Shown one piece after another: positions 4,203-14,533 of a DNA stretch of 64,000 nucleotides. Source of the DNA: Leptolyngbya sp. FACHB-261 (GTDB lineage: Bacteria > Cyanobacteriota > Cyanobacteriia > FACHB-261); contig NZ_JACJPL010000024.1 in assembly GCF_014696065.1 (NCBI RefSeq), forward strand, positions 124,001 to 188,000. Reading direction: 5' to 3'. Numbering within the stretch: the first letter of the stretch is position 1; each line of letters opens with the position of its first letter. The notes beneath the pieces are model-generated. The model made no database searches, was not told the origin of the DNA, and saw nothing but the letters and a program-made list of their open reading frames with translations. A program made the translations under genes and the position numbers.

Positions 4203-4231
4203 CAACACAACGCGCCAAATCCGATGTGTTG
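4203..4231 (+). other. Hairpin just 5' of structured RNA element A
   Basis: CAACACA at 4203-4209 and TGTGTTG at 4225-4231 form a perfect 7-bp stem with a 15-nt loop. No matching hairpin is evident at the same distance before element B, so it may not belong to the conserved fold. Confidence 0.5.
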
Positions 4232-4234
4232 CGT

Positions 4235-4508
4235 AAAAGCGACCCTTCTGATAGCGTGTTTTCAATCGTCAGAAGTGGAGCTTTTGCCTAACGAAAAATC
4301 ACTCAAGCAACATAAAAACTTAGCGCTACCTAGAAGCTCATAACCAACTTCTAGATAGCTAACCCCCCAACTGGTACTAGGCCAGTCAGGCGGCTAACGG
4401 GTGATTTTAACACCCCACTAGCCACCCCGACTTGCTACGGCAACTTACCGGGGTGGTTAACACTTTGGGCGGTCTTTGCGTAGGGATGAAATTTCAATTC
4501 GTCCCTAC
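4235..4508 (+). ncRNA. Candidate structured RNA element A, upstream of orf Y
   Basis: This stretch has no gene but can fold into a chain of stems that reappear in element B. They are: AAAAGC 4235-4240 with GCTTTT 4280-4285, enclosing CTTCTGA 4245-4251 with TCAGAAG 4269-4275; TTAGC 4320-4324 with GCTAA 4358-4362, enclosing CTAGAAG 4330-4336 with CTTCTAG 4348-4354; ACTGG 4370-4374 with CCAGT 4382-4386; GGGTG 4399-4403 with CACCC 4411-4415; AGCCACCCCG 4420-4429 with CGGGGTGGTT 4449-4458, enclosing TTGC and GCAA; GTAGGGATGAA 4480-4490 with TTCGTCCCTAC 4498-4508. No T-tract follows the last stem. The strand is inferred from the downstream gene. It may be a leader of orf Y or a free-standing RNA. 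It matches no family known to me. Confidence 0.72.
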
Positions 4509-4561: not shown

Positions 4562-4909
4562 ATGAACTTTGACCATTTATCGCCTTCGCAAATTCGGTTG
4601 ATGCTCTGGGACTACATCAGCCGTCAACTGCATCTGCCTGCCTCGACCAAAAGCATTCTGCTAGTGATCGCCAACCTCACTGACCCGCGTAGTCTACGCG
4701 CCCGCATCCCTATCTCGCTGATCGTCGTTCATGGTGGACTGAGCCAATCCGACACCAATCGGCTGCTAGTCAACCTGGAAGCAAACCAGTGGGTCAGCAA
4801 AATGTTGGTGCCTGACGAAGCGATCGGTCGCCCACCTATCACCCTCTACAACCTCTCCGAGCAACTGGTTCGAGCAGCGTTACAAGCCAGCAAGAGATCT
4901 AGCGATTGA
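4562..4909 (+). CDS. Uncharacterised 115-residue protein (orf Y), winged-helix-like
   Basis: The gene follows structured RNA element A by 53 bp, with GAGAGAACTAACC before ATG 4562. The product reads like a small helical DNA-binding fold: SPSQIRLMLWDYI, then LPASTKSILLVIANL, then a possible recognition helix SQSDTNRLLVNLEANQWV and a beta-wing-like PPITLYNL. It shows no membrane segment. A broken relative lies at 12591-12880, directly behind orf X and structured RNA element B, so the gene belongs to a recurring module. Its stop is 2 bp from the stop of the opposing Uma2 gene. The winged-helix idea is inference from the helix pattern; the function is unknown. Confidence 0.8.
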   Translation: MNFDHLSPSQIRLMLWDYISRQLHLPASTKSILLVIANLTDPRSLRARIPISLIVVHGGLSQSDTNRLLVNLEANQWVSKMLVPDEAIGRPPITLYNLSEQLVRAALQASKRSSD

Positions 4910-11537: not shown

Positions 11538-11849
11538 GGGAAACGCTCTCCAATGGCTGGAAGGGGTTTGCTTCACTATTTAACCCTGAAGCTGGACGGT
11601 TCTGGCTGAAGCTGGCTGCCTTGCGCCCTCTACTGTGCGGAAATCCAGACGTTTGCTCACCCTAATATCTATGACATCCAAAACATTCGGGCGGCAATTG
11701 GGAGCACTAGTCAGGAGGGCAGTGGTAGTAATGACAACAAGGACGATGATTTTCTAAGATTTTCTAAACGGTAATAAGCTATTGAGCGCTCAGGATGTAA
11801 CTCCTGCATCTAGAGAGAGCTACCTGACATTAGAAAGAGGCGAAATACA
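11538..11849. other. 312-bp gap upstream of serS and element B
   Basis: This holds the serS leader and the region upstream of the element B module. Direct repeats of TTTTCTAA occur near 11750-11768 and a short hairpin (CAGGA/TCCTG) near 11790. I see no gene. Confidence 0.35.
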
Positions 11850-11912
11850 ATGAAAATTTTCGCAAAAAGCTCGACTCACTTAAATACGCTTGTCAAAGCT
11901 GTGCTCCTTTGA
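11850..11912 (+). CDS. Possible 20-residue leader peptide before structured RNA element B
   Basis: GAGG (11837-11840) sits nine bases before ATG 11850, which opens a frame MKIFAKSSTHLNTLVKAVLL ending at TGA 11910. The stop lies inside the first stem of structured RNA element B, so translating ribosomes would disturb that stem. No equivalent frame is seen before element A, which weakens the case. It may be a true leader ORF or a chance frame. Confidence 0.35.
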   Translation: MKIFAKSSTHLNTLVKAVLL

Positions 11913-12158
11913 TAACGTACTCTCCATCCTGCGTAAAGGAGCAACCTGCTTAGCGACAAAATCCCTCAAAAATTTAGCGCTACCCAAAAGCTTTAGCCAA
12001 CTTTTGGATAGCTAACCCCCTAACTGCACAGAACGCAGTCCGGCGGCTGACAGGTGATTTTAACACCGACTAGCCACCCCGACTTGCTATTGGCAAATCA
12101 CCGGGGTGGCTAACACTTTGGCGGCATTCCGGTAAGGGCAGGATGGCCCTGCCCTTAC
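11895..12158 (+). ncRNA. Candidate structured RNA element B, upstream of orf X
   Basis: The stems match element A one for one with different bases: AAAGC 11895-11899 with GCTT 11948-11951, enclosing GCTCCTTT 11903-11910 with AAAGGAGC 11935-11942; TTAGC 11974-11978 with GCTAA 12011-12015, enclosing CCAAAAG 11984-11990 with CTTTTGG 12001-12007; ACTGC 12023-12027 with GCAGT 12035-12039; GGTG 12053-12056 with CACC 12064-12067 around loop ATTTTAA; AGCCACCCCG 12072-12081 with CGGGGTGGCT 12102-12111, enclosing TTGC and GCAA; GTAAGGGCAGG 12132-12142 with CCTGCCCTTAC 12148-12158. Between the two elements ACTGG/CCAGT becomes ACTGC/GCAGT, and the last stem changes at several pairs while staying paired. 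This argues for selection on RNA structure. Confidence 0.72.
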
Positions 12159-12204
12159 CCACAACCGCGTTCAATTTTTCGCGTTCAACTTTTGTGGAGT
12201 GGGC

Positions 12205-12576
12205 ATGTTGATGCGCCAACTTTTGCATGTGATTAATCCGCGTCAATTCGAGATTTCGCTCAGCTATCTCGCCACCTATTTAGGCATTCCAGCCAACTGT
12301 ATTTTGCGTTTTGAACAGTGGGCCAATGTCCTCTTCGTCCATCGCAAAGATCGGGGCGGGCAATTCGTGAGTTATCGCAACTTAATCCACTGGATCGAAG
12401 CCTGTGTTCGTGCCATTCAAACCTGTCCTAACCCCCAGGCCCTACAAGAACTCGGCCAATTTCTCAAAACCGAAATCGAGCGTTTCACCTACGCCGATGA
12501 CGTTATTAGGTACCTGCGGCGACTCTGGCTACAACGCAAAGCCCAACTCAATCTCACCCCTAATCTCTACTCCTAA
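12205..12576 (+). CDS. Uncharacterised small protein (orf X) behind structured RNA element B
   Basis: GGAG at 12196-12199 precedes ATG 12205 by 5 bases and ATG 12211 by 11; either could start. The product begins near MRQLLHVINPRQFEISLSYL and continues LATYLGIPANCILRFEQWAN, VLFVHRKDRGGQFVSYRNL, then helical segments (WIEACVRAIQTCPNPQALQELG) and a basic tail. No signal peptide or membrane helix is present. I do not recognise a named family; the mix of a short helix-turn-helix-like start and a strand pair could be a nucleic-acid-binding fold, but that is a guess. The degraded orf Y relative begins 14 bp after its stop, so X and Y once formed an operon behind element B. Confidence 0.78.
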   Translation: MLMRQLLHVINPRQFEISLSYLATYLGIPANCILRFEQWANVLFVHRKDRGGQFVSYRNLIHWIEACVRAIQTCPNPQALQELGQFLKTEIERFTYADDVIRYLRRLWLQRKAQLNLTPNLYS

Positions 12577-12590
12577 CCCCTAATTCCCGC

Positions 12591-12880
12591 CTGACTCCCT
12601 CTCAACTTCGCCTCAATGGGGCTACATCACCCACGAACTGCCCCTGACGCCACCGCTCAAGCTCATCCTGCTCGTGGTCGCCAATTTCTACTGCTCCTCG
12701 GAGCCGCACTGCCAAACTGCCTGTCTCCCTGATCGTTTACGGCTCCGGTTGTGCCACCAAGAACTCCAGTGTCTGCTCGTCAGCTTGAAATCTGCTCAGT
12801 GGCTCCACTCGATCTGGAGCACCGACCAAGTTGGGCAACGACCGATCTTGCTCCACAACCTGTCACCCCGCCTGATCTAA
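12591..12880 (+). pseudogene. Frameshifted relative of orf Y
   Basis: Conceptual translation in shifting frames aligns with the intact gene at 4562-4909. LTPSQLRL matches LSPSQIRL; after a shift, WGYITHELPLTPPLKLILLV matches WDYISRQLHLPASTKSILLV. After another shift, RTAKLPVSLIV matches LRARIPISLIV. After a third, LLVSLKSAQW matches LLVNLEANQW, and QRPILLHNLS matches RPPITLYNLS. At least three frame changes are needed, so the gene is dead as written, unless there are sequencing errors. It begins 14 bp after orf X and stops at TAA 12880. The decay contrasts with the preserved stems of element B upstream. Confidence 0.75.
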
Positions 12881-13063
12881 CTGCCTCTGAGCGAGAACTC
12901 CTGAAACTCTGGCTTAATTCCCTTATCTCAGTGGCTGGAGTTGCCTGGTCTTCAGGTGGAAGCCTGAAAAGAAATAATTGAAGGCTTTACTCCTTAGTCA
13001 GGTTTACTGGCCTCAGCTGCCAGCCTGACCGCCCAGATCGGTGCGACCCGCCAGGAGAATCAG

Positions 13064-14533
13064 GTGCTTGAGACTTTATCGGAATTTCTGCTGCAAGATG
13101 CCCAAGCCATCGAGGATGACTTTGGTCGTGCGATGGCGCTCACCGAAATCGTCGACCGCCTGGTCTCAGCAGGGCACTACGACCGGGCTTTGCAAATCGC
13201 CCGCACCATCGAAGATGCCTTTATCAAAACCTGTACCCTGGCGGATCTAGCAGGTCGCTACGCCGAAGCAGGTCAGTACGACCAAGCGCTGCAAGTTGCC
13301 CAAAGCGTTGAAGATGCCGCAGTCCAGAACAACACCCTGAGCGAGGTGGCCGCTAAATACGCCCTTGCTGAGCACTGCGAGCAAAACCAGGCGCTGACAG
13401 CCATGGCGCTGAAATACGCCAGCAGCGAGCAGTACGACCAGGCCTTACAGGTCAGCAGTCTGATCGATACTCCCCTGGATCAAGGGCAGACCTTGTGGCA
13501 AATTGCCCTGCAAGCCCTAAGCACTAAAGATTACCAAACAGCTCTGCGCATCAGTCGCACTATTGAAGAGCCGCTCATCCAAGCTCAAGCACTCGCCGAA
13601 ATCGCCTGCCGAGCGGGTGCTGCCGAGCAGTATGACTGGGCGATGCAGATTGCTCAGTCGATTAACGAGGCAGAAATTCAGCCCCAAACCCTGAGTAAGC
13701 TCAGCAGTCAAAGCGCTGTCGCTGGACAGTTTAGTCAAGCACTAGTTTTTGCCCAGGCGATTCAAGATGTCATTCAGCTGGACATCACTTTGCAGCAGCT
13801 CGTGGCCAGAGCCCTAAGCATCGAACATTATGACCAGGCTCTACAAGCGGCACGTTTATTACAGGAACTCGATCAAAAAGACGCAGCATTTCAGGATATT
13901 ACTCTCAACGTTTTAGCCTCCGGCCATTGGGAAAATGCGCTGCAAGTGGCTCAGCTGATCGAAGCGATTGAACGTAAAGACGAGGTCTTAAAAAAAATTG
14001 CAGAGCATGCCTTAAATGAGGGCTACTGGAGCCAAACCCTCGATATTGCCCAAACCATCCAGGCCAAAAGCCAACGCGATGGGATCCTGCAAAAAATTGT
14101 GTTGCGAGCCTTAGAAGCCTGTAGCTGGGACCGCGCTCTTCAGGTCACACAACTGATTCAAGATCACTCATTACAGGTGTGGTCATTAACTGAGATCGCC
14201 TTTAAAGCCTCCGAAGCTGGGCACTGCAATCAGGCACTGCAAATCGCTCAAATCATTGAGCAAAATCTGTCTAAAGCCCGTGCCTCAGCTGAATCAGTTG
14301 TCAAACTGGCAATGACTGGACATTATGACCGAGCCTTTGAACTTGCCCAGAGCATCGAAGATAGCTCCAGCAAAGCCCATGCCTTAGGTGAATTGTCAGT
14401 CAAACTAGCAACAGCTGGACATTACGCCCAAGCATTGCGAGTTGCTCAAGCAATCGAGGATGCCTCCAGCAAGGCACGCATGTTAGCCGAAGTCGGTCGG
14501 CGCTTGGCCTGGTTAGGCGCTTTGTCGAAGTAG
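13064..14533 (+). CDS. Protein of about fourteen 33-residue TPR-like helical repeats
   Basis: Almost all of the 489 residues consist of a 33-residue unit of the type HYDQALQVAQSIEDAS plus KAxALxEIAxKxAxAG, repeating from near residue 5 to the C-terminus. Each unit is two amphipathic helices, as in TPR or SEL1-like solenoids. The third full unit is cut to 19 residues (HCEQNQALTAMALKYASSE). AGGAG lies six bases before GTG 13064, supporting that start, although the frame is open back to 12998. There is no signal peptide. It follows the broken orf Y and is convergent with the binding-protein gene. A protein-protein scaffold is the natural inference; partners are unknown. Confidence 0.85.
   Translation: MLETLSEFLLQDAQAIEDDFGRAMALTEIVDRLVSAGHYDRALQIARTIEDAFIKTCTLADLAGRYAEAGQYDQALQVAQSVEDAAVQNNTLSEVAAKYALAEHCEQNQALTAMALKYASSEQYDQALQVSSLIDTPLDQGQTLWQIALQALSTKDYQTALRISRTIEEPLIQAQALAEIACRAGAAEQYDWAMQIAQSINEAEIQPQTLSKLSSQSAVAGQFSQALVFAQAIQDVIQLDITLQQLVARALSIEHYDQALQAARLLQELDQKDAAFQDITLNVLASGHWENALQVAQLIEAIERKDEVLKKIAEHALNEGYWSQTLDIAQTIQAKSQRDGILQKIVLRALEACSWDRALQVTQLIQDHSLQVWSLTEIAFKASEAGHCNQALQIAQIIEQNLSKARASAESVVKLAMTGHYDRAFELAQSIEDSSSKAHALGELSVKLATAGHYAQALRVAQAIEDASSKARMLAEVGRRLAWLGALSK

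Follow-up and report, generated by a model that had tools for sequence, protein, structure and literature searches.

Element B of Leptolyngbya sp. FACHB-261, a putative leader RNA of an apparently unrecorded cyanobacterial family

Element B, a structured region in the 64,000-nucleotide stretch of Leptolyngbya sp. FACHB-261 DNA analysed here (the window), seems to be one copy of a widespread cyanobacterial leader-RNA family that is apparently unrecorded. The explanation that we consider probable has three parts taken jointly: element B would be a leader of the P1-P4 family transcribed from its own promoter, the family members found ahead of small-protein genes would contain a switch formed by helices P0 and P5, and the 20-codon open reading frame that runs into the first stem of element B would be accidental.

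Results

Element B is a repeated structured RNA

The earlier note described positions 11895-12158 as a structured element that repeats the stems of another element of the window, element A. Element B is indeed a genuine structured RNA with the stems of A, and both are matched by covariance model R1, which was built from 20 sequences (clade 1, the clade-2 intermediate L068 and other cyanobacteria). The boundaries needed revision: the unit begins at the -35 box at 11890, the core occupies 11972-12117 and a further hairpin extends to 12159. The features of the two elements are as follows.

11850-11912, + strand: supposed 20-codon leader frame of B, ATG 11850 to TGA 11912 (1 of 23 copies; judged accidental)
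11890-11895, + strand: -35 box of B, TTGTCA (promoter pattern in 23 of 23 clade-1 copies)
11903-11942, + strand: first stem of B, GCTCCTTT (11903-11910)/AAAGGAGC (11935-11942), with the 5' arm within the promoter
11910-11918, + strand: extended -10 of B, TGATAACGT, after a 17-nt spacer; holds the TGA stop of the supposed frame
11972-12117, + strand: conserved RNA core of B (R1, 138.2 bits)
11979-12012, + strand: helix P1 of B, arms 11979-11990 and 12001-12012; both-side changes in 11 of 12 pairs (20 and 66 sequences)
12023-12039, + strand: helix P2 of B, ACTG/CAGT with loop; paired cells 100% (20 sequences) and 99.6% (66)
12053-12067, + strand: hairpin P3 of B, GGTG/CACC around ATTTTAA; paired cells 83% (20 sequences) and 63% (66)
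12071-12112, + strand: helix P4 of B, TAGCCACCCC/GGGGTGGCTA; paired cells 94.5% (20 sequences) and 95.3% (66); terminator-like in other genomes
12131-12159, + strand: additional GC-rich hairpin GGTAAGGGCAGG/CCTGCCCTTACC, present in clade-1 copies and lying between the core and X
12211-12576, + strand: orfX of B, 121 aa from ATG 12211 (ATG 12205 is also possible)
12617-12898, + strand: broken orfY copy 3' of X in B, one stop inside (E 9.7e-15)
4229-4257, + strand: promoter of A, TTGCGT, 17 nt, TAGCGT (same promoter pattern)
4318-4464, + strand: RNA core of A (R1, 147.7 bits)
4562-4909, + strand: orfY of A, winged-helix-like; a sister copy weakly resembles HTH_36

The segment 11840-12210 folds far more stably than shuffled sequences (z -6.2; none of 100 shuffles was as stable). 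When 11840-12220 was compared by BLASTN with its own genome (6.95 Mb in 36 contigs), 40 matches were obtained of which 23, A and B included, were near-complete, and the other 22 near-complete copies had 72-85% identity to B. These 23 copies and strong covariation place the RNA core of element B beyond chance. For the structure as a whole none of 500 shuffles reached the observed paired cells and covariation score, either in the 20 sequences or in a 66-sequence alignment fitted to the R1 model. A structured core with covariation, one of the criteria for a translational riboswitch, is thus present. Conservation of the outer pairs of P2 is poor (54% of cells for helix 2 in the 66 sequences), and the conserved junctions of the family are AGCG, CUAACCCC and GGNGGCUA. 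A gene for a 489-aa protein lies 3' of element B (window 13064-14533), and its DNA contains repeats whose spacing is in most cases a multiple of 99 bases.

The RNA precedes an expanded two-gene cassette

Downstream of most RNA copies in the genome lies a pair of genes, X and Y, with products of about 125 aa and about 108 aa respectively. The earlier note had element B preceding a gene different from that of A; B does precede X, but X and Y belong to one gene pair of which each element has retained half: Y in element A, which gave no X match, and X plus the broken Y in element B. X and Y are an expanded two-gene cassette family, with 47 X and 47 Y matches in the window genome that fall into two clades and are often neighbours with the RNA in front (L042-L101). 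The RNAs at the 11 clade-2 loci examined have the same architecture, and R1 recovered all 10 of those 11 that had been left out of the model (E 1.2e-8 to 2.7e-16). In clade 1 the start of X or Y lies 96-406 nt from the core and most X genes have no clear Shine-Dalgarno sequence. Two clade-2 cassettes (L065 and L067) contain low-complexity, repeated coding-like stretches between X and Y.

The RNA is also found before two other short open reading frames of the window genome that lie outside X-Y cassettes (L211 and L212), and 5' of X relatives in Symploca sp. SIO3C6 and SIO2E9. A search for X relatives gave 27 X loci, and 8 of these have the RNA; the X-like locus L105 of genome G170 gave a weaker R1 match (37.1 bits). 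No match to X was obtained in the viral contigs searched, and neither X nor Y matched a family above cut-off in Pfam, PHROGs, NCBIfam or PADLOC, the best sub-cut-off match being that of a Y protein to HTH_36 (E 1.9e-4). An AlphaFold model of X from 21 sequences had a pLDDT of 90.3; Foldseek gave it no neighbour at E 0.001 and none that was convincing, and the best VIA-align hit, T4 UvsW.1 (Z 6.0), was not judged convincing. Y alone gave a poor predicted structure (pLDDT 64.6).

A conserved promoter overlaps the supposed leader frame

The earlier note had pointed out a 20-codon frame with GAGG in front that stops inside the first stem of element B. The sequence is as described, with GAGG at 11837-11840 and the frame at 11850-11912. 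Alignment of the 23 clade-1 copies gave the pattern TTGNNN-N17/18-TGNTANNNT in all of them versus 1.8 expected in shuffled sequence, and hence a sigma-70-type extended -10 promoter is found 46-60 nt 5' of the RNA core in every copy. In element B it reads TTGTCA-N17-TAACGT with the extended TG (-10 hexamer 11913-11918), and the TGA stop of the frame is the start of the extended -10. A promoter was also found at 47 of 48 loci of other genomes, a median of 57 nt 5' of the core, and at 10 of the 11 clade-2 loci examined. The predicted transcription start of element B is near 11925, so the transcript would include neither the frame nor the 5' arm of the first stem.

When more copies were compared, the leader frame proved not to be conserved. 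An ATG frame with a Shine-Dalgarno sequence that ends at this site occurs in one copy of the 23, that of element B itself, which is not more than chance; TTG frames occur in two others. The idea that translation of the frame gates the fold of B thus meets a frame confined to a single copy and overlapping a promoter present in all 23, and it is the earlier note's own alternative, an accidental leader, that holds. We judge the 20-codon frame to be a chance overlap with promoter sequence. The first stem is strong in element B (-14.7 kcal/mol) and in a near relative, L002 (-12.9 kcal/mol). Exchange of its arms among the 23 copies gave no clear covariation: own arms paired at -8.9 kcal/mol and exchanged ones at -7.3 kcal/mol, and in the median case 8 of the 22 foreign arms bound at least as well. 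Close to their predicted 5' ends the clade-1 copies have a conserved GGAG..TTTGCCTA in common (window 11935-11950 and its equivalents in L001-L023), and no conserved start codon or frame was seen at that motif in the 23 copies.

The RNA family is widespread and is paired with a small protein

Among 388 cyanobacterial genomes R1 matched the RNA in 101, spread over 53 of the 160 genera; this survey scored no more than 8 candidates in each genome. When more candidates were scored in 11 chosen genomes, each gave 4-76 matches (72 in the window genome and 76 in G182), although these counts may include weak opposite-strand matches. Most of the RNAs sampled from G182 precede near-identical 72-aa proteins (L177, L178 and L197-L210). 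A phylum-wide scan for the RNA matched 13 of 386 genomes and, among the matches listed, only the same class was represented. BLASTN gave no match to the RNA in the plasmids and phages searched.

The loci sampled in other genomes were the best loci of the R1 survey plus 20 chosen from its list (L168 was dropped). At 47 of these 48 loci, the exception being L190, the gene downstream on the same strand encodes a small protein of about 70-100 aa belonging to one undescribed family. A profile HMM made from 10 of these proteins recognized the product at 37 of 38 loci outside its training set and at none of the upstream or opposite-strand controls. The small protein occurs in 93 of the 101 genomes with the RNA versus 49 of the 287 genomes lacking an RNA match, and the window genome has 8 matches to it. 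The small proteins matched no family above cut-off in Pfam, NCBIfam or PADLOC. Relatives are encoded on Nostocales plasmids (12 records; L191-L196), some of them beside partition or integrase genes, and the 6 of these 12 records that were inspected gave no RNA match.

Two predicted helices would compete for one strand in the small-protein leaders

At the 48 loci of other genomes the bases immediately 5' of AGCG can pair with those immediately 3' of P4, and this pairing was called P0. Its arms gave -17.8 kcal/mol when paired with their own partners, -12.6 when exchanged and -8.7 when shuffled. With one locus per genome (n=30) the values were -18.0 for own versus -12.2 kcal/mol for exchanged arms, and for P5, a second helix, they were -11.8 versus -9.4; none of 2000 permutations did as well in either case, although sequence relatedness inflates these and all our other exchange and shuffle tests. 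The 3' strand of P0 would also pair in P5, and thus P0 and P5 would compete for one strand. The segment that begins with that strand and ends at the start codon was folded for the 40 loci having a gene nearby, and in the minimum-energy fold the P0 strand had 4 or more paired bases at every one of them. The Shine-Dalgarno sequence was at least half paired at 29 of the 40, the remaining 11 being below half or having no Shine-Dalgarno sequence. From sequence we infer that this P0/P5 layout in the small-protein leaders is that of a translational switch.

In the 23 clade-1 copies, A and B included, P0 is unsupported (own -8.0, exchanged -8.5 and shuffled -6.2 kcal/mol). As X in addition often lacks a Shine-Dalgarno sequence and the gene is distant, we claim no working switch for A and B; what we claim for them is membership of the RNA family and the position of a cis leader.

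Discussion

Element B would be the 5' leader RNA of its cassette, transcribed from its own sigma-70 promoter with a start near 11925. In the small-protein leaders the closing helix P0 and P5, a hairpin that would cover the Shine-Dalgarno sequence, would share a strand, and access to the ribosome-binding site may depend on how the core folds, which would resemble either a translational riboswitch or a protein-bound leader. In the lineage of the window the controlled gene would have become X, or X-Y.

Transcription attenuation would explain some of the same features. P4 and the U run that follows it would be an intrinsic terminator, and the pairing GGCUA/UAGCC would be the competing antiterminator. 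A run of at least 4 U residues lies within 8 nt of the end of P4 at 39 of the 48 loci elsewhere, and the GGCUA/UAGCC pairing, which excludes P4, is possible in 88.8% of the cells of the 20 sequences. However, that pairing shows no both-side change, clade 1 (A and B included) has no U run directly after P4, nor do 9 of the 48 other loci, and the U run doubles as one arm of the covarying P0. We think attenuation unlikely. Control by a protein rather than by a small-molecule ligand, in which autoregulation comes about through binding of the small protein (or X) to the leader of its own gene, would fit the nearly one-to-one pairing of RNA and small protein (47 of 48) and the many paralogous pairs per genome. 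It fits poorly with the same RNA standing before unrelated proteins (X, X-Y and the other open reading frames of L190, L211 and L212) and with the 49 genomes that have the protein and gave no RNA match, and we doubt it to a similar degree.

Still less probable is that the unit is chiefly an RNA-X-Y cassette that has dispersed and may be mobile, with the RNA serving its spread or acting in trans. The 23 near-complete RNA copies and the 47 X and 47 Y matches are scattered over contigs and some cassettes have lost X or Y, as such spread would predict, but no transposase or recombinase gene was recognized in the cassettes, no shared ends were seen by eye in the alignment, and elsewhere the RNA is the leader of small single genes. 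As to control of the folding of B by translation of the 20-codon frame, the frame, its GAGG, the overlap with the stem and the similar stem of L002 are there in the sequence; with the frame in one copy and the promoter that it overlaps in 23, we give this explanation almost no weight.

The own-promoter leader with a P0/P5 switch in the small-protein members could have a broader meaning, which we put forward tentatively and at less than even odds: the family may be a ligand-sensing leader RNA of a new class that is widespread, is amplified in some genomes to about 70 copies with a separate small protein under the control of each, and was re-used in the window lineage for a spreading X-Y cassette. 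If so, few regulatory RNA classes would be repeated as often within one genome, and many cyanobacterial genomes would devote dozens of loci to a single undescribed RNA sensor and small-protein family. That the leader is shared points to a common signal, and this makes the RNA and the small protein directly testable. The cassettes would also be an example of a leader RNA transferred to unrelated genes.

Comparison with known systems

A scan of the whole window with Rfam 15 gave no matches at gathering thresholds, and the four sub-threshold matches given by 11600-12400 at relaxed thresholds (E 0.36-2.6) were judged to be chance. Element B resembles peptide-leader attenuators in having a short frame over its first stem, but the frame is not conserved and is upstream of the predicted start. 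Element B was rejected as a peptide-leader attenuator on these grounds, the frame being in 1 of 23 copies and 5' of that start. In the openly licensed PMC literature no description of this RNA family was found in the titles, abstract openings and text passages covered, and the text of PMC11109978 reached by a term search had no mention of cyanobacteria.

Of the known kinds, the Downstream-peptide/glnA glutamine riboswitch comes closest. The Downstream-peptide motif is described as cyanobacterial leaders before short genes (17-100 aa) whose family is unknown (PMC2864571), and the Downstream-peptide (RF01704) and glnA (RF01739) RNAs are, like the present family, cyanobacterial 5' leader RNAs (same source). 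Neither model was matched by element B (E up to 5) or by eight family members (E up to 1), and the core of the element B family, about 140 nt with four helices, is unlike both. Translational riboswitches bind a ligand, a role that is a candidate one in the element B family. The small-protein leaders resemble them in layout, with a closing helix and a ribosome-site hairpin that would be mutually exclusive through one shared strand.
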